This document shows positions 1 through 12,291 of a stretch of 12,458 nucleotides of DNA, one piece after another. Origin of the DNA: Mycobacterium sp. GTDB lineage: Bacteria > Actinomycetota > Actinomycetes > Mycobacteriales > Mycobacteriaceae. The stretch is taken from NCBI GenBank assembly GCA_023264755.1, contig JAHFVB010000076.1, positions 1 to 12,458 on the forward strand, in the 5' to 3' direction. The position numbers and the translations under genes are program-made. The notes below the pieces were generated by a model that was not told the origin of the DNA, did no database searches, and saw only the letters and a list, made by a program, of their open reading frames with translations. How positions within the stretch are numbered: position 1 is the first letter of the stretch; each line of letters starts with the position of its first letter.

Positions 1-438
1 GCCGACCTGGGTGCGCGCACCATTCGCGAGGAGATCGACGCGATGCGGGTGCTCGGCATCGACGCGATTCACCGCCTGGTGGTGCCCCGCGTATTGGCGT
101 CGACCCTGGTCGCGCTGCTGCTCAACGGCCTGGTGTGCGCGATCGGCATCTCCGGTGGATACGTCTTCTCGGTGTTCCTGCAAGGAGTCAACCCGGGAGC
201 CTTCATCAACGGGCTCACGGTGCTGACCGGACTGCCCGAACTCATCCTGGCCGAGATCAAGGCGCTGTTGTTCGGAGTGATGGCCGGACTCGTCGGGTGT
301 TACCGCGGATTGACCGTGCAGGGCGGCCCCAAGGGCGTCGGCGTCGCAGTCAACGAAACCGTGGTCTATGCCTTCATCTGCCTGTTCGTCATCAACGTGA
401 TCATGACGGCGATCGGCGTGAGAGTGCTGGCCCGCTAG
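1..438 (+). CDS. yrbE4A: YrbE4A, Mce4 ABC-type permease subunit (5'-truncated by window edge)
   Basis: This is the last 145 residues of a MlaE/YrbE-family permease; the open frame runs in from base 1, so the start lies left of the window. The family is about 250 residues long (M. tuberculosis YrbE4A is about 254). The fragment begins just before the family signature EEIDAMRVLGIDA (codons 10-22). This is the cytoplasmic coupling segment thought to contact the ATPase MceG/Mkl. At least three hydrophobic segments follow, then the conserved GGPKGVGVAVNETVV stretch and a hydrophobic C-terminus. With YrbE4B it should form the inner-membrane heterodimer that drives lipid uptake through the Mce4 tunnel. 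Its TAG stop overlaps the GTG start of yrbE4B by one base (TAGTG), which suggests translational coupling. The family call is very secure; the '4' comes from the neighbourhood. Confidence 0.95.
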   Translation, partial: ADLGARTIREEIDAMRVLGIDAIHRLVVPRVLASTLVALLLNGLVCAIGISGGYVFSVFLQGVNPGAFINGLTVLTGLPELILAEIKALLFGVMAGLVGCYRGLTVQGGPKGVGVAVNETVVYAFICLFVINVIMTAIGVRVLAR

Positions 439-1280
439 TGAGTTACGATGCCACTATTCGGATCCGTCGTTTCTTCCGTGGCGTGCCTAGGGCCGTCGAC
501 ACGGTGGGCGAGCAAGCTCTGTTCTACGGCGAGTCGATCCGCTACATCCCGAACGCGCTGACTCGGTACCGCAAGGAGACCGTTCGGCTGATCGCCGAGA
601 TGACCATGGGCGCCGGCGCATTGGTGATGATCGGCGGCACCGTCGGCGTCGCCGCATTCCTCACCTTGGCCTCTGGCGGCGTCATCGCCGTGCAGGGCTA
701 CTCGTCACTCGGCAACATCGGCATCGAGGCCCTGACCGGCTTCCTGTCGGCCTTCCTGAACGTTCGCATCGTCGCTCCGGTGATCGCGGGCATCGCGCTG
801 GCGGCGACCATCGGCGCCGGTACCACCGCCCAACTCGGTGCGATGCGCGTGGCCGAGGAGATCGACGCCGTGGAGGCGATGGCGGTGCACTCGGTGTCCT
901 ACCTGGTGTCCACGCGGATCATCGCCGGCCTGATCGCGATCATCCCGCTGTACTCGCTGTCGGTGCTGGCGGCCTTCTTCGCCGCGCGGTTCACCACCGT
1001 CTTCATCAACGGACAGTCGTCCGGGCTGTACGACCACTACTTCAATACGTTCCTGGTGCCGACCGACCTGTTGTGGTCGTTCCTGCAGGCGATCGTGATG
1101 TCGGTCGCGGTCATGCTGGTGCACACCTACTACGGCTACAACGCCTCCGGCGGACCCGTCGGGGTCGGCATCGCCGTGGGTCAAGCGGTCCGGACGTCGC
1201 TGATCGTGGTCGTCACCATCACCTTGTTCATCTCCCTGGCCGTGTACGGCGCGTCGGGCAACTTCAACCTCTCCGGATAG
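438..1280 (+). CDS. yrbE4B: YrbE4B, Mce4 ABC-type permease subunit
   Basis: Complete 280-residue MlaE/YrbE-family membrane protein, the same length as M. tuberculosis YrbE4B, and the sequence matches my memory of that protein closely over most of its length. A polar N-terminus (MSYDATIRIRRFF) is followed by about five or six hydrophobic segments. The coupling motif, with M136 and the acidic pair E140-E141 (MRVAEEIDAVEAMAV), lies in the usual cytoplasmic loop, and a GGPVGVGIAVGQAVR stretch precedes the last membrane helix. The GTG start at 438 is chosen because it overlaps the yrbE4A stop and yields the family N-terminus; no good Shine-Dalgarno sequence is visible, so coupled re-initiation is likely. 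It pairs with YrbE4A in the inner membrane; no ATPase gene is in the window, as is normal for mycobacterial mce operons. Confidence 0.96.
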   Translation: MSYDATIRIRRFFRGVPRAVDTVGEQALFYGESIRYIPNALTRYRKETVRLIAEMTMGAGALVMIGGTVGVAAFLTLASGGVIAVQGYSSLGNIGIEALTGFLSAFLNVRIVAPVIAGIALAATIGAGTTAQLGAMRVAEEIDAVEAMAVHSVSYLVSTRIIAGLIAIIPLYSLSVLAAFFAARFTTVFINGQSSGLYDHYFNTFLVPTDLLWSFLQAIVMSVAVMLVHTYYGYNASGGPVGVGIAVGQAVRTSLIVVVTITLFISLAVYGASGNFNLSG

Positions 1281-1282
1281 GC

Positions 1283-1287
1283 GGGAG
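1283..1287 (+). promoter_or_regulatory. Ribosome binding site of mce4A
   Basis: GGGAG ends five bases before the ATG at 1293, in the 12-base gap after yrbE4B. This is the widest gap in the operon and the clearest independent Shine-Dalgarno site, so mce4A can probably initiate translation without coupling. Confidence 0.6.
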
Positions 1288-1292
1288 TTCCG

Positions 1293-2492
1293 ATGGCCGG
1301 TGACGCCAAGCGCAGCCATGTGCGGATCGCTGCGGCGATCCTCGCCGCCGTGCTGCTGGCCGCCACCGTCTTCACCTACCTCTCCTATACGGCCTTCTTC
1401 ACCTCGGTCGACACGGTGACGGTGTTCTCCCAGCGGGCCGGCCTGGTCATGGAACGGGACGCCAAGGTCAAGTACCGCGGCATCCAGATCGGCCAGGTCA
1501 AGGACATCGCCTACACCGGCGACGCCGCCAAGCTGACGCTGGCGATCGACAGCAGCCAGCTCTCCTACATCCCGTCGAATGCCACCGTCCGGATCGGTGG
1601 CACCACGGTCTTCGGGGCCAAGTCGGTGGAGTTCCTGCCCCCCGACAAGCCCTCGGGCGACTCGCTGAGGCCGGGTGCGCAGGTGCAGGCCGGCTCGGTG
1701 CAGCTCGAGGTCAACACGCTCTTCCAGACCCTGCAGGACGTGTTTAAGAAGGTCGACCCCATCAACCTCAACGCGACCATCACGGCCTTGGCCGACGGGC
1801 TGCGGGGCAACGGCGACAACCTCGGTACGACGCTCGCGGGGCTGAACTACTACCTGCAGCAACTCAATCCGAAGCTGCCCACCCTGCAGCAGGACTTCCA
1901 GAAGACCGCGGCCGTAGCCGCCATCTACGCCGACGCGGCGCCAGACCTGGCCACGGTCTTCGACAACGCGCCGACGATCAGCAAGACGGTCGTGGATCAA
2001 CAGGACAACCTGAACGCGACCTTGCTGGCCGCGACGGGGCTGGCCAACAACGGCACCGCGACCCTGGCGCCCGCGGCCGACGATCTGATCGCGGCCATCC
2101 AGCGGTTCCGGGCGCCCTTGAAGGTGCTTGGCGACTACTCACCCGAATACGGGTGCCTGCTCAAGGGCATCAAGACCGCGCTCGACACGTTCGCGCCCGT
2201 GCTCGGTGGCATCCGGCCCGGGCTGTTCACGTCGTCGAACTTCATTCCCGGCGCTCCGGCCTACACCTACCCGGAGAGCTTGCCGCTCGTGAACGCCTCC
2301 GGCGGGCCGAACTGCCGCGGGCTGCCCAACGTGCCGACCAAGCAATACGGCGGATCCTGGTACCACACGCCGTTCCTGGTCACCGACAACGCCTACGTGC
2401 CGTTCCAGCCGAATACCGAACTTCAATTCGACGCGCCCTCTACGCTGCAGTTCCTGTTCAACGGGGCCTACGCGGAACGGGACGATTTCTGA
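1293..2492 (+). CDS. mce4A: Mce4A, MCE-family lipid-binding tunnel protein
   Basis: Protein of 399 residues (M. tuberculosis Mce4A has 400). One N-terminal membrane anchor (about residues 11-33) is followed by an MCE/MlaD domain (about 38-115). The domain shows typical features such as VKYRGIQIGQV, and an SVEFLPP end. A long helical region rich in Asn, Leu and Gln (about 130-285) follows; it belongs to the Mce4_CUP1-type domain that packs into the tunnel of the hexamer. A Gly/Pro/Tyr-rich C-terminal domain contains Cys288 and Cys341, which could form a disulfide outside the membrane. By family knowledge, six different Mce subunits assemble into one tube carrying sterol or other lipid from the outer envelope to YrbE4A/B. 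The TGA stop overlaps the mce4B start (TGATG). The gene is intact. Confidence 0.95.
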   Translation: MAGDAKRSHVRIAAAILAAVLLAATVFTYLSYTAFFTSVDTVTVFSQRAGLVMERDAKVKYRGIQIGQVKDIAYTGDAAKLTLAIDSSQLSYIPSNATVRIGGTTVFGAKSVEFLPPDKPSGDSLRPGAQVQAGSVQLEVNTLFQTLQDVFKKVDPINLNATITALADGLRGNGDNLGTTLAGLNYYLQQLNPKLPTLQQDFQKTAAVAAIYADAAPDLATVFDNAPTISKTVVDQQDNLNATLLAATGLANNGTATLAPAADDLIAAIQRFRAPLKVLGDYSPEYGCLLKGIKTALDTFAPVLGGIRPGLFTSSNFIPGAPAYTYPESLPLVNASGGPNCRGLPNVPTKQYGGSWYHTPFLVTDNAYVPFQPNTELQFDAPSTLQFLFNGAYAERDDF

Positions 2493-3526
2493 TGGGCAAG
2501 AACGCGACCCTGATCAAGGTCGGCATCTTCACCCTCGTCATGGTGTTGGTGGCGGCCGGGCTGGTCATCGTCTTCGGCCAGTTCCGCTTTGCCTCGGGCA
2601 ACACGTTCCACGCCAATTTCGCCGAGGCCTCGCGACTGAAGGCGGGCCAGGACGTCCGGATCGCCGGCGTGCCGGTCGGTTCGGTACAGAAGGTCAAGCT
2701 CAACCCGGACAACAGCGTCGACGTCACCTTCGACGTGAACAGCCGCTACCAGCTGTACACCTCCACCAGGGCCGTGGTGCGCTACCAGAACCTCGTCGGT
2801 GATCGATACCTCGAAATCACCTCGGGTCCAGGCGAACTGCGCAAGCTGCCGCCCGGGAGCACCATCGTCCGGCAGAACACCCAACCCGCGCTGGACCTCG
2901 ACGCCCTGCTCGGCGGGCTCAAGCCCGTCCTGAAGGGCCTGGACGGCAACAAGGTCAACGAGGTCAGCAACGCGGTCATCGAACTGCTGCAGGGCCAGGG
3001 CGGCGCGCTGAGCAACATGCTCACCAGCACCAGTGCCTTCACCTCCGACCTGGCCGCCCGCGACCAGCTGATCGGCGACGTCATCAACAACCTCAACACG
3101 GTGCTCGCCACCGTCGATGACAAGGGCGCGCAGTTCAACGCCAGCGTCGACCAACTTCAGCAGCTGATCACCGGACTGGCGCAGAATCGGGACCCCATTG
3201 CGGGAGCCATTCCGCCGCTGGCCTCGGCCACCAACGAGCTGACGAACCTGCTCCAGACCAGCCGGCGACCGGTGCAGGGAGTCATCGAGAATCTGCGGCC
3301 ATTGGTCCAACGGGTGGACGAGCGCAAGGGCGACATCAACCCGATGATCGAATCGCTGGCCGAGAACTATCTGCGGCTCAACGCACTCGGCGCCTACGGC
3401 TCGTTCTTCAACATCTACTACTGCTCGATCCGGATGAAGATCAACGGCCCCGCGGGCAGTGACATCCTCATCCCGTTCGGTGGTCCGCCCGATCCGTCGA
3501 AGGGAAGGTGCTCGGAGAATGGCTAG
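2492..3526 (+). CDS. mce4B: Mce4B, MCE-family lipid-binding tunnel protein
   Basis: Protein of 344 residues (M. tuberculosis Mce4B about 350). Start ATG at 2492 overlaps the mce4A stop by one base and gives a short polar N-terminus (MGKNATLIK) before a single membrane anchor (about residues 8-29). The MCE/MlaD domain spans about 35-114, with VRIAGVPVGSVQKV and LVGDRYLEI as clear family marks. Residues 125-290 form the long helical tunnel region, containing repeated Asn/Gln/Leu heptad-like stretches. The C-terminal part (LGAYGSFFNIYYC) holds Cys311, with Cys340 close to the end, a pattern I expect for MceB-type subunits. The frame could be extended upstream to 2153, but that stretch lies inside mce4A and has shadow composition. 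The end overlaps mce4C by eight bases. Confidence 0.95.
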   Translation: MGKNATLIKVGIFTLVMVLVAAGLVIVFGQFRFASGNTFHANFAEASRLKAGQDVRIAGVPVGSVQKVKLNPDNSVDVTFDVNSRYQLYTSTRAVVRYQNLVGDRYLEITSGPGELRKLPPGSTIVRQNTQPALDLDALLGGLKPVLKGLDGNKVNEVSNAVIELLQGQGGALSNMLTSTSAFTSDLAARDQLIGDVINNLNTVLATVDDKGAQFNASVDQLQQLITGLAQNRDPIAGAIPPLASATNELTNLLQTSRRPVQGVIENLRPLVQRVDERKGDINPMIESLAENYLRLNALGAYGSFFNIYYCSIRMKINGPAGSDILIPFGGPPDPSKGRCSENG

Positions 3527-4577
3527 GCCAGGCGAGGGAAACCCCTTGCGCACCGGGATCTTCGGCATCGTCATCGTGACGGCGCTGGTGCTGGTGTCCT
3601 TCGGGTACACGGGCTTGCCGTTCTGGCCGCAGGGCAAGAACTACGAGGCCTTCTTCACCGACGCAGGCGGCATCACGCCGGGCAACGACGTCAGCGTCTC
3701 CGGCATCAAGGTCGGCAAGGTGTCCGCGGTGGAGCTCGCCGGAGCCTCGGCCAAGGTCACCTTCACCGTCGACCGCCACATCAAGGTCGGCGACCAATCC
3801 CTGGTGGCCATCAAGACCGACACCGTGCTTGGCGAGAAGTCGCTGCGCGTCACCCCGAAGGGGAGTGGCAACGTGACGTCGATTCCGTTGGGCCGGACCA
3901 CCACTCCGTACACGCTCAACACGGCCCTACAGGATCTTGGCCGCAGCGCCAGCGACCTCGACAAGCCCAAGCTCGAAACCGCCCTGAACACGTTGACCGA
4001 CACCCTCAAGGAGGCGACGCCCCAGTTGCGCGGCGCGCTCGACGGGGTCGCGAATCTGTCTCGCAGCCTCAACGCTCGCGACGAGGCCCTCGAACAGCTG
4101 CTGATGCACGCCAAGCGGGTATCGGACACGCTGGCCCAACGGGCGGGTCAGGTGAACCAGCTCGTCACCGACGGCAACCTGCTGTTCGCCGCGCTCGACG
4201 AACGGCGCCAGGCGTTGAGCACGTTGATAGGCGGCATTCAGGAGTTGTCGCACCAGCTTTCGGGCTTCGTCGCCGACAACCGCCGCGAGTTCGCGCCACT
4301 ACTGCAGCGGCTCAACGCGGTGATGGACAATCTGCTGGAGCGCAAGGACCACATCGGAGAAGCGTTGCGCAGGCTGCCCCCGTACGCGACGGCGCTCGGC
4401 GAAGTCGTCGGCTCCGGTCCCGGCTTCCAGATCAACCTGTACGGCCTGCCGCCCGCCAGCTTGTCGGAGGTGCTGCTCGACACGTACTTCCAACCGGGCA
4501 AGCTACCGGACAGCCTCGCCGACTACCTGCGCGGATTCATCTCCGAGCGGATGATCATTAGGCCGAAGTCGCCATGA
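3519..4577 (+). CDS. mce4C: Mce4C, MCE-family lipid-binding tunnel protein
   Basis: Protein of 352 residues (M. tuberculosis Mce4C about 357). I place the start at ATG 3519, eight bases inside mce4B, because it gives a short basic N-terminus (MARPGEGNPLRTG) directly before the membrane anchor (about 12-33). A purine-rich GAAGGGAAGG stretch lies about ten bases upstream and GGAG directly before it. The MCE/MlaD domain covers about 39-117 (VSVSGIKVGKV, DTVLGEKSLRV). A long alpha-helical region follows (about 130-300), rich in Leu, Arg and Gln, with an ERKDHIGEALRRL segment near its end. I see no cysteine, unlike subunits A, B, D and F. The in-frame ATG at 3459 would add a basic 20-residue stretch inside mce4B and is less likely. 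ATGA overlaps the start of mce4D. Confidence 0.94.
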   Translation: MARPGEGNPLRTGIFGIVIVTALVLVSFGYTGLPFWPQGKNYEAFFTDAGGITPGNDVSVSGIKVGKVSAVELAGASAKVTFTVDRHIKVGDQSLVAIKTDTVLGEKSLRVTPKGSGNVTSIPLGRTTTPYTLNTALQDLGRSASDLDKPKLETALNTLTDTLKEATPQLRGALDGVANLSRSLNARDEALEQLLMHAKRVSDTLAQRAGQVNQLVTDGNLLFAALDERRQALSTLIGGIQELSHQLSGFVADNRREFAPLLQRLNAVMDNLLERKDHIGEALRRLPPYATALGEVVGSGPGFQINLYGLPPASLSEVLLDTYFQPGKLPDSLADYLRGFISERMIIRPKSP

Positions 4578-5980
4578 CACCAGGGAATTCGACGATCTTG
4601 CGCTCGCGTTGGCTGCGCTTCGCCGCCGCCGCCGTACTGGTGGTCGCCTTGATCGGCGGCATCTACACGGTGTGGCCGTCGCGGCAGGGCAAGCGGGTGG
4701 TCGCCTACTTCACCACGGCCGTGGGGCTCTACCCGGGCGACGAGGTCCGGGTGGTCGGGGTGCCGGTCGGGACCATCGAGTCCATCCAGCCGCGCGCCAC
4801 CGACGTCAAGGTCACCATGAAGGTGGACGACGACGTCAAGCTGCCTGCCGACGCCCGCGCCATCGTCATCGCGCCGAACCTGGTCTCGGCCAGATTCGTT
4901 CAGTTCACCCCGGCCTATACCGGCGGTCCGGTGATGGCCGACGGCGCCGAAGTCGGGCTCGATCGCACCGGAGTGCCGGTGGAATGGGATGAGGTCAAAG
5001 AACAGCTCACCCAGCTGAGTGCTCAACTCGGACCGCAGGTGAATTCCGTGCAGGGCCCGCTCAGCGCGTTCGTCAACCAGGCCGCCGACACGTTCGACGG
5101 CAATGGGGACTCATTCCGCAACGCACTGCGGGAGCTGTCCCAAACCGCTGGCCGACTGGGAGATTCGCGCACCGACCTGTTCGGCACGGTGCGCAACCTT
5201 CAAGTCCTGGTCAACGCGCTGTCGAACAGCAATGAGCAGATCGTGCAGTTCGCGAACCACGTCGCCTCGGTATCGCAGGTGCTCGCCGACAGTTCCAAGG
5301 ACCTGGATCAAACCCTCGGCGCACTCAACCAGGCGCTCGGTGACGTGAAGGGCTTCCTCGATCAGAACAACTCGGCGCTGATCGCCCAGATCGGCAAGCT
5401 GACCGACTTCACCTCGCTGCTCAGCTCTCACAGCGATGACATCGAGCAGATCCTGCACATCCTGCCCAACGGACTGGCGAACTTCTACAACATCTACAAC
5501 CCGGCCCAGGGCACCGTCGGCGGTCTGCTCTCGCTGCCCAACTTCGCCAATCCGGTCCAATTCATCTGCGGCGGTACGTTCGACGTCGGAGCCTCCCCGG
5601 ACAACTACAAGCGCGCGGAGATCTGTCGCGAACGGATGGGCCCGGTGCTCAAGCGCATCGCGATGAACTACCCGCCGGTGCTGTTCCACCCGATCAACAG
5701 CATCACGGCCTACAAGGGCCAGATCATCTACGACACCCCGGAGACCGAAGCCAAGGCTCAGACCCCACTGCCGTATCTGCAGTGGCAGGCCGCGCCCGGC
5801 GTCACGCCGCCGACGCCCCAGCCGGACGGCACGCTCAGCGACATGATCCTGCCGCCACCAGCCGTGCAGGGCCAGATTTCGCCGGCCGGCCCCGTACCCG
5901 CAGCGCCACCGATGGGCGCCGGACCGCTACCGGGACCGCCGCCAGGGCCGCCGCTGCCGGCAGAATCGGGGGGTGGCTGA
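4574..5980 (+). CDS. mce4D: Mce4D, MCE-family lipid-binding tunnel protein with Pro-rich tail
   Basis: Protein of 468 residues; M. tuberculosis Mce4D is about 451, so this one is slightly longer. ATG overlaps the mce4C stop (ATGA). The N-terminal anchor lies at about 13-35 and the MCE/MlaD domain at about 39-117 (EVRVVGVPVGTIESI, NLVSARFVQF). A helical tunnel region (about 135-300) follows, with many Asn, Gln and Leu residues. The segment ILPNGLANFYNIYNP and the pair Cys332/Cys351, a probable disulfide, mark the C-terminal globular part. Residues 411-468 are a proline-rich, low-complexity tail ending in GGG, probably disordered and lying in the periplasm or facing the outer envelope. The extra length relative to the M. 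tuberculosis protein probably lies in this tail. Its stop overlaps the mce4E start (TGATG). Confidence 0.94.
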   Translation: MTPGNSTILRSRWLRFAAAAVLVVALIGGIYTVWPSRQGKRVVAYFTTAVGLYPGDEVRVVGVPVGTIESIQPRATDVKVTMKVDDDVKLPADARAIVIAPNLVSARFVQFTPAYTGGPVMADGAEVGLDRTGVPVEWDEVKEQLTQLSAQLGPQVNSVQGPLSAFVNQAADTFDGNGDSFRNALRELSQTAGRLGDSRTDLFGTVRNLQVLVNALSNSNEQIVQFANHVASVSQVLADSSKDLDQTLGALNQALGDVKGFLDQNNSALIAQIGKLTDFTSLLSSHSDDIEQILHILPNGLANFYNIYNPAQGTVGGLLSLPNFANPVQFICGGTFDVGASPDNYKRAEICRERMGPVLKRIAMNYPPVLFHPINSITAYKGQIIYDTPETEAKAQTPLPYLQWQAAPGVTPPTPQPDGTLSDMILPPPAVQGQISPAGPVPAAPPMGAGPLPGPPPGPPLPAESGGG

Positions 5981-7179
5981 TGTCCACGCGAAAGACCCTG
6001 CGCACCAAGGCTTTGCGGTCCGGTCGTCACGCCGTGGCGCTCGGCTCGGGCGTAGTACTGATGGCTGGGTGCTCATTCGGCGGCCTGAACTCGGTGGACA
6101 TGCCGGGAACCGCCGGACATGGCAGCGGCTCATTCACCATCACCGTCGAGTTGCCCGACGTGACGACGCTGCCCCAGAACTCACCGGTGATGATCGACGA
6201 CGTCACCGTGGGCAGCGTGTCGGGCATCGAGGCCCTGCAGCGGCCCGACGGCACGTTCGCCGCCGCGGTGAAGCTGTCGCTGGACAAGGACGTCAACCTG
6301 CCGGAGAACTCGACCGCGACGGTCGCGCAGACGTCCCTGCTCGGCTCGCAGCACGTCGAATTGAAGCCTCCCGCAGATCAGCCCGGTCAGGGCCGACTGC
6401 GGGAGAACTCCTTGATCCCGGAGTCGCAAACCAGTCGATACCCCAGCACCGAAGAGGTGTTGTCATCGCTTGGCGTAGTGGTCAACAAGGGCAATCTCGG
6501 TGCGCTGCAGGACATCACCGACGAGGCCTACGCCGCCGTCGCCGGGCGGGCCGGCAGTTTCGCCGGGCTGATCCCGCGCCTGGCCGAGCTGACCGGTTCG
6601 CTGCAGCAACAGACCACGGACATCATCGCCGCGGCCGACGGACTGAACCGCTTTGCGGCGACGCTGGCGCGCAGCAAGGACGGCCTCGGGCGGACGCTGG
6701 ACTCGCTGCCCGGCGCGCTGAAGGTGCTCAACGCCAACAGATCCAACCTCGTCGACGCGTTCACCGCGCTTCGGCAGTTCGCCCTGGTCGCGTCCCGCGT
6801 GCTCACGGGGATAAAGACCGACTTCGCCGCCGACTTCAAGGATCTGTATCCGGTCATCAAGGCGCTCAACGACAATGCCGACGACTTCATCTCCGACCTG
6901 GACCTGCTGCCGACGTTCCCCTTCGACTACAAGTACATCAAGAACGCCGTGCGCGGTGACTACCTGAACGTCTTCGTCACGTTCGACCTGACGGTGCGAC
7001 GCTTGGGTGAAACGGTCTTCACGACGTCGAAGGGGCTCGACCCGAACATGAAACACATGAGCGACGTCATCAACCCGCCCGACTTCCTGACCGGAGCCAT
7101 GTCGAACCTGTCCGGTCAGGCCGCCGATCCCTTCAAGATCCCGCCTGGCACCGCCACCGAGCACCCGAAGGCGCCGTAG
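5980..7179 (+). CDS. mce4E: Mce4E (LprN-like), lipoprotein subunit of the Mce4 importer
   Basis: Protein of 399 residues (M. tuberculosis Mce4E/LprN about 384). Unlike the other five subunits it has a basic N-region and a lipoprotein signal peptide ending in the lipobox LMAGC, with the acylated cysteine at Cys31. This is typical of MceE proteins, annotated Lpr in M. tuberculosis. The MCE/MlaD domain runs from about 51 to 133 (SPVMIDDVTVGSV, TSLLGSQHVEL). A helical region follows (about 150-330), then a PTFPFDYKYIKNAVRGDY segment characteristic of MceE C-termini. After secretion it should be lipid-anchored by Cys31 and form one of the six tunnel walls. ATG at 5980 overlaps the mce4D stop by one base. 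The stop TAG directly abuts the mce4F ATG. Confidence 0.95.
   Translation: MSTRKTLRTKALRSGRHAVALGSGVVLMAGCSFGGLNSVDMPGTAGHGSGSFTITVELPDVTTLPQNSPVMIDDVTVGSVSGIEALQRPDGTFAAAVKLSLDKDVNLPENSTATVAQTSLLGSQHVELKPPADQPGQGRLRENSLIPESQTSRYPSTEEVLSSLGVVVNKGNLGALQDITDEAYAAVAGRAGSFAGLIPRLAELTGSLQQQTTDIIAAADGLNRFAATLARSKDGLGRTLDSLPGALKVLNANRSNLVDAFTALRQFALVASRVLTGIKTDFAADFKDLYPVIKALNDNADDFISDLDLLPTFPFDYKYIKNAVRGDYLNVFVTFDLTVRRLGETVFTTSKGLDPNMKHMSDVINPPDFLTGAMSNLSGQAADPFKIPPGTATEHPKAP
7167..7171 (+). promoter_or_regulatory. Ribosome binding site of mce4F
   Basis: GAAGG within the last codons of mce4E ends eight bases before the ATG at 7180. The ATG follows the mce4E stop with no gap, and this site supports it over any upstream start. 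Confidence 0.5.
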
Positions 7180-8904
7180 ATGATCGATCGGCTTACTCGC
7201 GTGCAGTTGACGATCTTCGCGATCGTCACCGTCGTGTGCGTCGGCGCCATGTCGACGCTCTACCTGCACCTGCCTTCGGCGGTGGGGCTCGGTTCCTACC
7301 GGATCACCGCCGACTTCAAGGCCGGTGGCGGGCTCTACGAGAACGCCAACGTGACCTATCGCGGAGTCACCATCGGGCGGGTCGAATCGGTGGGACTGAC
7401 CAAGACCGGCGTCGTGGCCGACATGCGGTTGAACTCGAATACGCCCGTCCCGGACAACGTCACCGCAACCGTCAAGAGCGTCTCGGCGATCGGCGAGCAG
7501 TACGTCGACCTGGTGCCGCCGGCCGGGAACGAGCCGGCGTCGAAGGGCTTCTTGCGCGACGGCTCGAACATCGGCGTCGAGCACACCGCCGTCGGTCAGG
7601 ACATCGCCGGGATGCTGGCTGCGGCCGACCAGCTGGTCAACAGCGTCGGGAACAGCCGGATCCAGGACCTGCTGCGCGAAACGTTCAAGGCGTTCAACGG
7701 CTCCGGGCCCGAACTGGCCCGGCTGATCCAGTCGTCACGGCTGCTGGTGGACGAGGCCAACTCGAACTACGGGCAGACCACGCAGCTGATCGACCAGGCC
7801 GGCCCTTTCCTCGACTCGCAGGTTCGCAGCGGCGACGACATCAAGTCACTGGCCGACGGGTTGGCTCGATTCACCAAGGAGGTCGCCCACGCCGATCCGC
7901 AGTTGCGGTCCGTGCTGCAGACCGTGCCCGGGGCGGTGCAGTCGGCCAACACGACCTTCGACGGCATCCGTCCGTCGTTTCCGATGCTGGCCGCGAATCT
8001 GGCCAACTTCGGCAGAATCGGCGTGATCTACCACAAGTCCATCGAGCAGGGGCTGGTCATCTTTCCGGCGCTGTTCGCGGCACTGCTGACCGTCGGCGGC
8101 GGGTTGCCCACCGACGAGGGCGGCAAGCTCGACTTCAAGGTCGACCTCGGGGATCCGCCACCGTGCTCGACCGGGTTCATCCCGGCTCCGCTGATCCGCA
8201 GCCCCGCCGACACCACGTTGCGCGACCTGCCGACCGACCTGTACTGCAAGACGGCCCAGAACGATCCCTCGGTGGTGCGCGGCGCCCGTAACTATCCGTG
8301 CCAGGAGTTCCCCGGCAAGCGGGCCCCCACCATCCAGTTGTGCCGCGACCCGGTGGGCTACGTGCCGATCGGGAGCAACCCGTGGCGCGGTCCGCCGATT
8401 CCGTACGGCACGCCGATGGGGCAGTCGGAAGACAACCACTACGAGCCCGACAGCCGGAACATCCTGCCGCCCAACAAGTTCCCGTTCATTCCGCCGGGCG
8501 CGGACTACGATCCTGGGGCCCCCGCCGTACAGCTGCCGCCCGGCGTGCCCGCCGGTCCTGGGCCGGCTCCCAACGCGCCGTTCCCGCTTCCGGTGCCGCC
8601 CAATGACAACGGACCGCCTCCGCCGCTGCCGTTCTACGCGCCACCGGACCAGGTGGTGCCGCCGTACGGCCGGACGCCGCCGGCGCCCCCCGCACCGGCA
8701 GCGCCGCCTGCGCCCGACGCACCTGCGCTGCCCGCCGAGGCGAACCCGCCGCAGGCCAGTGCACCCGCCACCACCACGTACGATTCGAGGACCGGTGTCT
8801 TCGTCGACCCAGCCGGCGGCACCGGGATCTTCGCCGGGGGGCTTGCCAACGGAGTCTCCGCGGAGAATTGGGTTGACCTAATGCTGGATCCACGGAAGGT
8901 GTGA
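7180..8904 (+). CDS. mce4F: Mce4F, MCE-family tunnel protein with long Pro-rich tail
   Basis: The longest subunit, 574 residues (M. tuberculosis Mce4F about 564). A single N-terminal anchor (about 6-29) leads into the MCE/MlaD domain (about 38-115: VTYRGVTIGRVESV, SAIGEQYVDLVPP). The helical tunnel region lies at about 130-280. A cysteine-rich globular part follows, with Cys329, Cys356, Cys374 and Cys388, enough for two disulfides. Residues 438-530 are strongly enriched in Pro, Ala and Gly and look disordered. The protein closes with a more ordered stretch ending GGLANGVSAENWVDLMLDP, so the Pro-rich part is a linker, not a free tail. In the family the F subunit is always last of the six and completes the hexamer. 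Its TGA overlaps the next gene. Confidence 0.95.
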   Translation: MIDRLTRVQLTIFAIVTVVCVGAMSTLYLHLPSAVGLGSYRITADFKAGGGLYENANVTYRGVTIGRVESVGLTKTGVVADMRLNSNTPVPDNVTATVKSVSAIGEQYVDLVPPAGNEPASKGFLRDGSNIGVEHTAVGQDIAGMLAAADQLVNSVGNSRIQDLLRETFKAFNGSGPELARLIQSSRLLVDEANSNYGQTTQLIDQAGPFLDSQVRSGDDIKSLADGLARFTKEVAHADPQLRSVLQTVPGAVQSANTTFDGIRPSFPMLAANLANFGRIGVIYHKSIEQGLVIFPALFAALLTVGGGLPTDEGGKLDFKVDLGDPPPCSTGFIPAPLIRSPADTTLRDLPTDLYCKTAQNDPSVVRGARNYPCQEFPGKRAPTIQLCRDPVGYVPIGSNPWRGPPIPYGTPMGQSEDNHYEPDSRNILPPNKFPFIPPGADYDPGAPAVQLPPGVPAGPGPAPNAPFPLPVPPNDNGPPPPLPFYAPPDQVVPPYGRTPPAPPAPAAPPAPDAPALPAEANPPQASAPATTTYDSRTGVFVDPAGGTGIFAGGLANGVSAENWVDLMLDPRKV

Positions 8905-9689
8905 TGGGGCCGGACGACACGACCGAAGTGACGGAACCGTCGGCAAGCGACGAGCCCACTTCCCGAACTGCGACCGACGAGACGGCCAAACCGCAAGGTA
9001 GGGCTGCCTCGCGTCGGCGTGCTTCCCGGCCCGCCGGCCCGGTCGCCGACCTCGACGCAGTACCCGCCGGTGACGGCGCCATCGTCGCCATACCCGTCGC
9101 CAGTTCGGTCGCCACGCCCAGCGCCACCAAGGTCCGGGTCGCCGGCCCGGTCGGTCCGCCGCCACGCCGCCAGCCGAACCGGACTCCGGTGCTGGTCATC
9201 GGGGTGGCCGTGCTCGCCGTGCTGGTCCTGGTACTCGGCATCGTGGTGGCACTGGTCACCGACCACCAACGCAAGGTCGACGCCGAGCAAGCCCGTAATC
9301 AGCGGTTCGTCGACACCGCCTCGCAGACCGTGGTCAACATGTTCAGCTACACCCAGAACACCATCGACGAAAGCGTCAACCGCTTCATCGACGGCATCAG
9401 CGGCCCGTTGCGCGACATGATGAGCCAGGGCAAGAACGTCGACAATCTCAAGGCCATCTTCCGCGACACCCAGGCCAACTCCGAGGCCGTCGTCAACGGC
9501 GCGGCGCTGGAGAAGGTCGACGAAGTCGCCAAGAATGCCGCCGTGCTGGTGGCAGTCCGGGTCACCGTCACCGATCTCAACGGGTTGAATGCGCCGTCCA
9601 AGCCGTACCGGCTGCGCGTGATCGTCCACGAGGACGACAGCGGACGCATGACCGGTTACGACCTCAAGTACCCCGAAGGCGGCAACTGA
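8904..9689 (+). CDS. Mas4A, Mce-associated membrane protein (Rv3493c-like)
   Basis: Protein of 261 residues (M. tuberculosis Rv3493c is about 242). An N-terminal cytoplasmic part of about 94 residues is rich in Thr, Ser, Ala, Arg and Pro and looks disordered. One membrane helix (about 95-118) follows, then an exported domain of about 140 residues of the Mce-associated type, a fold related to NTF2/VirB8-like modules. The end (VTVTDLNGLNAPSKPYRLRVIVHED) shows the closing beta-strand pattern of the family. I chose ATG at 8904 because GGAAGG (8894-8899) lies four bases upstream; the GTG at 8901 adds only one residue. Family knowledge suggests a role in stability or assembly of the Mce4 complex, not in lipid binding. 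It overlaps both neighbours by one base. Confidence 0.88.
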   Translation: MGPDDTTEVTEPSASDEPTSRTATDETAKPQGRAASRRRASRPAGPVADLDAVPAGDGAIVAIPVASSVATPSATKVRVAGPVGPPPRRQPNRTPVLVIGVAVLAVLVLVLGIVVALVTDHQRKVDAEQARNQRFVDTASQTVVNMFSYTQNTIDESVNRFIDGISGPLRDMMSQGKNVDNLKAIFRDTQANSEAVVNGAALEKVDEVAKNAAVLVAVRVTVTDLNGLNAPSKPYRLRVIVHEDDSGRMTGYDLKYPEGGN

Positions 9690-10033
9690 TGAGCCGACTG
9701 GCCACCAGGCTGGTGACGCTGCTGGCCGTCGTGGCCGCGCTAGCCTTCGTGGCACTGGCCGCCGCCGGTGGCTACGCCTACTGGAATCGAGTCGAAACCA
9801 ACGCCGAGGCACAGGCGCGGCAGGAGCTTCCGAAGCTGGCGTCCGACCAGCTGCCCCGCATCTTCGGCTACGACTACCAGACCGTCGAGCGCAGTCTCGG
9901 CGACGTCTACCCGATGCTCACCGACGACTTCCGGGAGCGCTTCTCCGAGCAGGTCACCAAGACGGTGATCCCCGAGGCCCGCAAGCGCCAGCTCGTCGTC
10001 CAGGTGAACGTCGTCGGAGCGGGAATGCTTGAC

Positions 10034-10051
10034 GCACATCGCACATCGCAC
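10034..10051 (+). repeat. 7-bp tandem duplication causing the mas4B frameshift
   Basis: The tract gcacatcgcacatcgcac is two perfect copies of GCACATC plus GCAC of a third. With a single full copy the codons read Asp-Ala-His-Arg-Thr-Ser-Gly-Ser-Val, joining the upstream and downstream family-like segments exactly. Slipped-strand replication is the simplest origin, and loss of one unit would restore the frame. Confidence 0.85.
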
Positions 10052-10186
10052 TTCGGGCTCGGTGCTGGTGTTCATGAACCTGACCTACACGGACCAATCC
10101 AAGCAGCCCGTGTACGAGGGCAGCCGGGTCCGCGTGGACTATCAGAGGGTCGGCGGCGCCTGGAAGATGCAGGCCATCAACCCGAT

Positions 10187-10190
10187 CTAG
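10187..10190. other. Shared CTAG palindrome carrying both convergent stop codons
   Basis: TAG at 10188-10190 on the + strand is the stop of the unshifted mas4B frame, and TAG at 10189-10187 on the - strand is the stop of otsA. The two convergent genes therefore overlap tail to tail by four bases. There is no intergenic space and no visible hairpin terminator, so the two transcription units probably end inside each other's coding sequence. Confidence 0.85.
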
Positions 10191-11671
10191 CCGGCGTCGG
10201 TGGGCCGCGTCGATGCCAGTGCTTCGAGGAACGCCCTGGCCCAGCGATCCACGTCGTGAGCCAACACCTGGCGGCGCAGCGCGCGCATCCGGCGGCGACC
10301 CTCTTCGGGGGGCTGCGTGATGGCCGCCTCGATGGAGTCCTTCACCCCGTCTAGATGATGGGGATTGGTCAGGTAGGCCTGTCTGAGTTCGGCTGCCGCA
10401 CCGGTGAACTCGCTGAGCACCAGGGCGCCGCCGAGATCACTGCGGCAGGCCACGTACTCCTTGGCGACCAGGTTCATGCCGTCGCGCAACGGCGTCACCA
10501 GCATCACGTCAGCGGCCACGAAGAAGGCGATCAGCTCGTCGCGGGGTAGCGGTCGGTGGATGTAGTGCACCACCGGGTGGCCGACCTCGCCGAACTCGCC
10601 GTTGATGTGGCCGACTTGACGCTCGATGTCCTCGCGCATCTCGATGTAGCTCTCCACGCGTTCGCGGCTCGGCGTGGCCAACTGCACCAGCACGGTGTCG
10701 GTGGGGTCGACCCGACCTTCGACGAGCAGTTCGGAGAAGGCCTCCAGCCGGACGTTGATGCCCTTCGTGTAGTCGAGTCGGTCGACGCCGAGCAGCACCT
10801 TGCGCGGATTGCCCAACTCGGATCGAATCTGGCGGGCGCGCTGGCGCACGCTGCGGTTGCGCGCCTTGCCGTCGAGCTCGGCCGAATCGATCGAGATGGG
10901 AAAGGCGCCGACCTTCACCGTGCGAAAGCCGACCTGAATCTCGCCGAAGCGAGACCTCACCCCGACCGTCGCGCGCGAGGTGTTCGCACCGATCAATCGG
11001 CGGGCCAGGATCAGGAAGTTCTGAGCTCCGCCGGGCAGATGGAAGCCGACGAGGTCGGCGCCGAGCAGCCCCTCGATGATCTCGGTGCGCCACGGCATCT
11101 GCATGAACAGTTCGATCGGCGGAAACGGGATGTGCAGGAAGAACCCGATCGTGAGGTCCGGCCGCAACATCCGGAGCATCTTCGGGACCAGCTGCAGCTG
11201 GTAGTCCTGTACCCACACGGTGGCGCCGGGGGCCGCCGCCTTCGCCGTGGCTTCTGCGAAGCGTCGGTTGACGTCGACGTAGCGATCCCACCACTCGCGG
11301 TGATAGATCGGCTTGACGATGACGTCGTGGTACAGCGGCCACAGCGTGGCGTTGGAGAAGCCCTCGTAGTAGTCGGCGACGTCTTCGGCGGACAAGCTCA
11401 CCGGTCGCAGCAGGAGCTCCTCGGCGACGATCGGTTCCTCGTCGGCGTCGGTAACCCCTGGCCAGCCGATCCAGGCGCCGTGCTGACGGCGCAACAACGG
11501 CTCGAGCGCGGTGACGAGCCCGCCCGGACTGCGCTTCCACGTCGTGCTGCCGTCGGCCAGCCGCTCCATGTCGATGGGCAGTCGATTCGCCACGACGACG
11601 AAGTCGGACTCACCGACCGGAGCGGGCTGGCCTTCGGCGACATGGTCGGGCTGGGCGCCCTCCGGCGTCAT
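10187..11671 (-). CDS. otsA: Trehalose-6-phosphate synthase (alpha,alpha-trehalose-phosphate synthase), GT20
   Basis: OtsA joins a nucleotide-activated glucose (UDP- or ADP-glucose in mycobacteria) to glucose-6-phosphate, giving trehalose-6-phosphate in the cytoplasm; OtsB then makes trehalose. The 494-residue protein (M. tuberculosis about 500) carries all key GT20 residues: Arg30 (ANRLP), Gly50-Gly51, Tyr102 and Trp111 ([10 protein letters not shown]), Asp156 (VWVQDYQ), Arg298/Lys303 (DRLDYTKG), and Asp397/Glu405 ([13 protein letters not shown]). I chose ATG 11671 because it overlaps the stop of the upstream small gene (TAATG) and gives an N-terminus like that of M. tuberculosis OtsA. An in-frame ATG at 11722 would add 17 residues out of the upstream gene. 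Trehalose is essential for cell-wall mycolate carriers, which matches the envelope theme of the neighbourhood. The 3' end converges with mas4B. Confidence 0.97.
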
Positions 11672-11832
11672 TAAGCCTCGAGTTTCGGCCCGATACCTAG
11701 CATCGACAGGAAGGTGCGGCATTCGTCCGCATCGACGGCATAAGCGGCTACCACCTTGCGAGCTTGGCGCGCAGTGCTGTCAGCCAGCGGTTCGACGTCG
11801 CCTAGTTCGGCGGGATCAGATTTCGTAGCCAT
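11671..11832 (-). CDS. 53-residue protein upstream of otsA (Rv3489-like), function unknown
   Basis: A small gene reading [10 protein letters not shown] at the start and ending [11 protein letters not shown]. The acidic first 18 residues are followed by a basic helix ([14 protein letters not shown]) and a motif [16 protein letters not shown]. tuberculosis has a gene of nearly the same size (Rv3489, about 54 residues) just upstream of otsA. The DxxxCRxxLxMLGI-type ending resembles many short actinobacterial proteins of unknown function. The TAA overlaps the otsA ATG by one base, so it is in an operon with otsA and probably translationally coupled to it. No Shine-Dalgarno sequence precedes its ATG; a -10 element ends six bases before it, which fits a leaderless mRNA. 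I do not know its function. It could be a regulator or partner of OtsA, or act mainly as a leader cistron. Confidence 0.8.
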
Positions 11833-11838
11833 CACACC

Positions 11839-11878: not shown

Positions 11879-12244
11879 TTATTCGGTGCCGTGGATGGTC
11901 GGATCGCTGCCGACGCTCGAGCTGGGCGGCACGTAATCCGGGGCGTCCTCCGCCAGGCCGATGCAGGCACCGGACGACCGGCCGCCCGTGCACGGGACGC
12001 CGTCGACCTCGGGGATGTCCGGGTTGGCCGCGTTGGTGGTGAACTCCGGCGAGTTGGGCACGGTGTGCGGGACGCAGTTTCCGGTGAAGGTGTCTTCCTC
12101 TTCGCCGTCGGCGCACGCCGCCGCGTGGGTTACCGGTGTGGTCGAGGGCACCGTGAAGGCAGCGACGGCGGGGGCCGCGGCGATCGCGAGCGCGAACCCG
12201 CCGGCAAGAACTAGACGTCGGGTTGTCGAATCGAAGGTCGCCAT
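11879..12244 (-). CDS. Small secreted Cys-rich mycobacterial protein (probably the family annotated 'intersectin-EH binding protein Ibp1')
   Basis: Protein of 121 residues with an N-terminal signal peptide. The n-region has an RR pair (STTRRLVLAGG), the hydrophobic core lies at about 11-24, and the likely cleavage site is Ala-Val-Ala after residue 28. The RR followed by Leu-Val-Leu makes Tat export possible, but Sec is equally plausible. The mature part contains Cys44, Cys57, Cys85 and Cys94, probably two disulfides, in the patterns GEEEDTFTGNC and NPDIPEVDGVPCTG. From memory this is a common mycobacterial family labelled Ibp1, a name that says little about its role in bacteria. ATG at 12244 is preferred over GTG at 12250, with a weak AGAAAG seven bases upstream. 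It is co-directional with the 53-codon gene and otsA but 46 bases away. Its function is unknown. Confidence 0.8.
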   Translation of the reverse strand: MATFDSTTRRLVLAGGFALAIAAAPAVAAFTVPSTTPVTHAAACADGEEEDTFTGNCVPHTVPNSPEFTTNAANPDIPEVDGVPCTGGRSSGACIGLAEDAPDYVPPSSSVGSDPTIHGTE

Positions 12245-12291
12245 CGTCACGCTTTCTGTCGTAGGTCGTTATTGACCGTGTAGTCGGGAGA

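Follow-up and report, generated by a model that had tools for sequence, protein, structure and literature searches.

A frame-breaking 7-base tandem duplication in mas4B (mam4B) at the end of a mycobacterial mce4 operon

The mce4 locus and the frame break in mas4B

The DNA studied here (the window) is the whole of contig JAHFVB010000076.1 (C442), 12,458 nt long, from the Mycobacterium sp. genome assembly GCA_023264755.1. On its plus strand lie the end of yrbE4A, then yrbE4B, mce4A-F, mas4A and mas4B (mam4B), followed by a convergent otsA on the minus strand. The genes were named by order and by homology to the mce4 locus of M. tuberculosis. The gene order used for that locus agrees with PMC1810536 and PMC5487216. 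In the window, as in three relatives, mas4B directly follows mas4A as the final gene of the operon, and it is this gene that is interrupted by a short tandem repeat.

Two GCACATC units were found in tandem at 10034-10047, inside mas4B, and this 14-base pair of units occurs once in the window. Tandem Repeats Finder reported 3.3 units of period 7 at 10033-10055. The surrounding 19-base array (10033-10051) has a single occurrence in the source genome and was not found in 20 other genomes searched. By itself the repeat is unremarkable. The window contains two perfect 7-base tandem pairs against 1.40 expected, and at least one such pair appeared in 76 of 100 first-order resamples. The period-7 run of the array is 12; a run this long at period 7 was seen in 2 of 300 resamples, but 57 of 300 had a run of comparable length at one or other of the periods that break the frame (4, 5, 7, 8, 10 or 11). 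What makes the repeat noteworthy is its position and its effect in a conserved gene.

The frame was examined against P0001, an intact database protein of 164 residues. Translation of 9689-10033 is identical to P0001 residues 1-115 (115/115), and translation of 10050-10187 in its own frame is identical to the C-terminus of P0001 (46/46), with a stop at 10188-10190 that overlaps the stop of otsA. The G+C content at third codon positions (GC3) was highest in the upstream frame for segments starting at 9710-9950 and in another frame for segments starting at 10010-10130. Since identity to P0001 is split over two frames and GC3 moves between frames at the same place, the frame is broken at the array. 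Both the array, as a real feature of the assembly, and the break at this 7-base tandem duplication were thus confirmed. Intact relatives have proteins of about 160-166 residues, and lengths of 160-164 are given for the Mas4B family in a table of PMC1810536; the window has no single continuous frame of about 160-166 residues for mas4B. The open reading frame (ORF) as it stands encodes 221 residues and, judged by eye, parts from P0001 after residue 120. The original prediction, which had placed a GCACATC pair in a frame-broken mas4B at the end of the operon and had called the protein after residue 120 shadow sequence, agrees with these results.

Table 1. Coordinates, strands and basis of the features in the window
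Feature	Position	Strand	Remarks
Period-7 array	10033..10051	+	Two GCACATC units and partial flanking matches; frame breaks here
mas4B/mam4B, upstream piece	9689..10033	+	Same frame as the start codon, 115 residues (predicted membrane helix, helical part and most of strand 1); identity to P0001, model of P0001
mas4B/mam4B, downstream piece	10050..10190	+	Different frame, 46 residues and stop (predicted strands 2-4 of the intact protein); identity to P0001 C-terminus, model of P0001
ORF as it stands	9689..10354	+	221 residues; 121-221 shadow sequence, partly antisense to otsA
yrbE4B and mce4A-mce4F	438..8904	+	All open; ORF list, alignment to relatives (mce4A-F), GC3 (yrbE4B)
mas4A/mam4A	8901..9689	+	Open; one-base overlap with mas4B start
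otsA (trehalose-phosphate synthase, glycosyltransferase family 20)	10187..11722	-	Convergent; stop codon overlapping that of the mas4B downstream piece

A protein search with the first 115 residues gave 482 matches, of which 120 were listed. Of these listed proteins, 73 (A1) and 49 (A2) went into the alignments on which the structure models were built. The model of P0001 has three helices and strands at 103-116, 120-132, 138-152 and 155-163, with a mean predicted local distance difference test score (pLDDT) of 94, and its predicted fold resembles the VirB8-like/NTF2 fold over most of the periplasmic domain. The periplasmic NTF2-fold domains of VirB8, DotI and TraM from type IV secretion were the similar structures, at identities of 9-16% in the top six rows, and a shared fold shows no shared function. 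In the model of the 221-residue ORF a long N-terminal helix, further helices and a strand at 103-113 were predicted, and family strands 2-4 were missing. The modelling places the break at the turn between strand 1 and strand 2 of the VirB8-like NTF2 fold, and the window form, as modelled, does not show the complete family layout, in which an N-terminal membrane helix and a helical part are followed by four strands. No match to the window form was found in Pfam or NCBIfam; intact P0001 had none in NCBIfam and no precomputed Pfam domain. The gene resembles Mam4B/Mas4B (Rv3492c) of the Mce4 cholesterol importer in its place at the end of mce4 after mas4A and in its N-terminal helix, and the intact relatives resemble it also in length and in a helical part followed by four strands. 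The window copy differs in its broken frame at the strand 1/strand 2 turn.

We also considered whether the 221-residue ORF encodes a genuine longer protein, or whether the normal one is produced by ribosomal frameshifting. The frame is open to 10354, and its GC3 returns to 0.70-0.80 from 10190 on, although this part is antisense to otsA and another frame is high there too. However, its GC3 was only 0.40-0.50 in segments starting at 10010-10130, the tail is partly antisense to otsA, and the tail was modelled mostly with pLDDT under 50, including a strand at 187-196 of low confidence. Among the 120 listed matches the 221-residue form appeared once, on the contig of the window itself, and the remaining 119 had 131-173 residues. 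A conserved extended frame was rejected, the listed matches containing no second 221-residue form, and relatives that use the extended frame, which would have overturned the original prediction, were looked for and not seen there. Programmed ribosomal frameshifting was rejected on the sequences, the relatives apparently having no conserved break. Taken as one, these two readings have a probability close to negligible.

Relatives and the age of the duplication

The motif pattern used to compare loci matched 36 of 50 other loci (L002-L051), and the 14 that it missed were left out of the locus comparisons. L002 is another place in the source genome, L049-L051 cover places already represented by L021-L023, and at the site L020 does not differ from L003. 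The nearest named relative was L003, a metagenome-assembled genome of Mycobacterium sp. (RYN_144); L020 (genome G144) is listed as the same genus. The distance from the motif to the stop was 60-61 residues in all 36 relative loci with the motif, compared to 117 in the window. A genus-wide protein search gave some match in all 396 genomes, the source genome included. In its best 150 rows the 149 besides the window's own reached residue 161 or beyond without stops, which is not a count of intact genes, as broken distant copies would score lower.

At the site of the duplication the period-7 run was 1-4 in 27 of 29 distinct relative sequences, 5 in L003 and 6 in L021. A 7-base tandem pair (a period-7 run of 7 or more) was present in none of the 29. 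Two near relatives, L003 among them, have two copies of CGCAC 7 bases apart, and such a pair of copies is a plausible seed for slippage, judging from the sequence.

The original prediction had offered on/off switching of the gene as one outcome. For a phase-variable switch, in which 7-base slippage turns Mam4B on and off, speak the formal reversibility of the change, the period-7 run of 12 and the M. tuberculosis frameshift indels that disrupt and restore genes, described in PMC8339072. The array, however, has only about two to three units, no further copy-number state of the repeat was found, and none of the 29 relative sequences reaches a run of 7. In known contingency loci the repeat is usually made up of far more units. 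A multi-unit contingency repeat was rejected on the short runs of the relatives and the absence of the array from the 20 other genomes, and the suggestion of switching was not borne out; a switch is very unlikely here. Because the database also contains this protein in intact form, the duplication is best taken as a rare mutation of recent date or as a fault of the assembly, and not as a new genetic switch.

No decay was seen in mas4B beyond the break. Compared with L003, the ratio of nonsynonymous to synonymous substitution rates (dN/dS) was 0.161 in the upstream piece (115 codons) and 0.147 in the downstream piece (46 codons); mas4A gave 0.077 over its last 118 codons. Against P0001 the downstream piece is unchanged. 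As dN/dS is alike on both sides and the downstream piece is unchanged, the break is either very recent or not present in the cells. An established pseudogene fixed in this species would not be without parallel, since other mycobacteria also have disrupted Mas genes, such as the mas3B of M. paratuberculosis, which is split by a transposase (PMC1810536). But there is no decay beyond the break, and an intact protein identical to both pieces exists in the database. A fixed pseudogene was rejected on the latter ground, and we regard it as highly improbable.

Neighbouring genes and the assembly

The original prediction had described the operon as otherwise intact. This held for mce4A-F and mas4A, which, like otsA, are open and alignable to three relatives, at least the first 58 residues of mas4A being unaligned. 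For yrbE4B it held as far as openness is concerned (ORF list and GC3), and yrbE4A is truncated by the contig start. Mce4A and Mce4D matched the MCE family model, and Mce4F gave an MlaD domain match and a sub-threshold Mce4_CUP1 match.

On the minus strand, a 54-residue ORF at 11671-11835 overlaps the listed otsA start at 11722, and its counterpart in L003 has 53 residues; the actual otsA start may sit further inside than listed. At the otsA N-terminus of L003 (2290-2350) a short in-frame tandem repeat was observed (EGAEPDHVA twice), with one similar unit in the window, and this repeat is another small tandem change in this lineage. A small, probably secreted protein without a Pfam or NCBIfam match is encoded at 11879-12250 (minus strand). 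Its counterpart in L003 lies at 3075-3428 (minus strand), where a second similar copy adjoins it. At the contig end, 12404-12445, there is a tandem repeat of period 15 with 2.7 copies.

No Rfam match at gathering score was found anywhere in the window, and an RNA element was rejected as an explanation. A plasmid copy was rejected for lack of a match in a plasmid collection, which may omit records near the genome of the window. The genome assembly is fragmented (636 contigs, 4.75 Mb, 70% complete, 2.55% contamination). Its fragmentation and completeness suggest a metagenome assembly, and the contig sizes suggest that short reads were used.

Origin of the duplication and its meaning

Taken together, the break is probably a recent, slippage-born 7-base duplication that created a rare loss-of-function allele of mam4B and not a switch. 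A slip between two CGCAC copies 7 bases apart in the coding site would give the tandem 7-base unit, and this would shift the frame of mam4B, which is orthologous to Rv3492c, within one lineage of this uncultured mycobacterium. Of the product, the portion from the membrane helix through the helical part to the first beta strand would remain, and strands 2-4 of the VirB8-like NTF2 domain would be lost. It would most likely be a non-functional Mce4 accessory protein. This reading draws on intact P0001, which matches both pieces and stands for 8 contigs against 1 for the 221-residue form, on the stop distances and dN/dS values given above, on the CGCAC pair in L003 and the run of 6 in L021, on the lack of a 7-base tandem pair in the 29 distinct relative sequences, and on the model of P0001 set beside the low-confidence tail of the 221-residue form.

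Several observations weigh against this reading. The slippage seed is not general, in view of the runs of only 1-4 in 27 of the 29 relative sequences, and the assembly is fragmented and incomplete, so that a fault of assembly or amplification may lie behind the duplication. In P0009, a second odd form of the protein on one 1357-base contig, an in-frame stretch of 13 residues (89-101 of P0001) is missing, and the rest is identical to P0001 by eye; this form may point to noise at this locus in assemblies of the population. The P0001 cluster holds 2 member sequences from 8 contigs, and the present database counts suggest that most contigs of the species are intact. These counts are the database's own, possibly incomplete, and are not an allele frequency, because in a parallel search with Mas4A the window's own protein was not listed full-length at 100% (the best full-length match was 94%, and one 221-residue fragment was 100%).

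The duplication may instead be an artefact of assembly or amplification. Cells would then carry the intact gene only, and the extra unit would stem from an error in a read or from an incorrect route through the assembly graph. Such an origin is favoured by the fragmentation and 70% completeness of the assembly, by the occurrence of the 221-residue form on only 1 contig among the listed matches while an identical intact protein is in the database, by P0009 as another single-contig variant, and by the intact state of the other compared genes of the locus. Short-read errors, however, do not usually take the form of a whole 7-base unit, and a read is much longer than the repeat. The repeat seed in near relatives also makes a true mutation plausible. 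We consider an artefact possible but rather unlikely, and the allele may well be present in living cells.

Short indels that silence genes are known from the M. tuberculosis frameshift indels and "frameshift scars" of PMC8339072, where such indels are associated with low-complexity sequence. The present case differs from those described there in that it involves one contig and a 7-base unit, with no restoring second indel seen. The main text of that paper makes no mention of mce, Rv349, tandem, 7 bp or 7-bp. Tandem repeats also change copy number in M. tuberculosis (PMC12817950); the repeats of that paper considered here lie in promoters, and the one unit size seen among them was 54-56 bases. 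Our literature search found no published report pairing mam4B with a frameshift.

An M. tuberculosis mutant deleted for this gene kept cholesterol uptake, whereas cholesterol metabolism was down by 80% (PMC5487216). Lowered sterol uptake, which the original prediction had offered as a possible result of losing the protein, is therefore not the documented phenotype. One could speculate that in a living sub-population of this environmental mycobacterium a mam4B allele prone to slippage is present at low frequency and breaks the link between sterol capture and import, with the helix reported to bind LucA kept, the periplasmic VirB8-like domain lost, and both origin and reversion of the allele frequent enough for bet-hedging; we give this scenario only a very slight chance.

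As it stands, the finding carries little weight, being a known accessory gene with its frame broken on one contig, and a single metagenome contig should not stand for the state of a species. If reads confirm the duplication, it would be a loss-of-function mam4B allele that occurs in nature and not only in laboratory strains, and the retention of the helix with loss of the beta domain would bear on the question of which region of Mam4B is required by the Mce4 complex.
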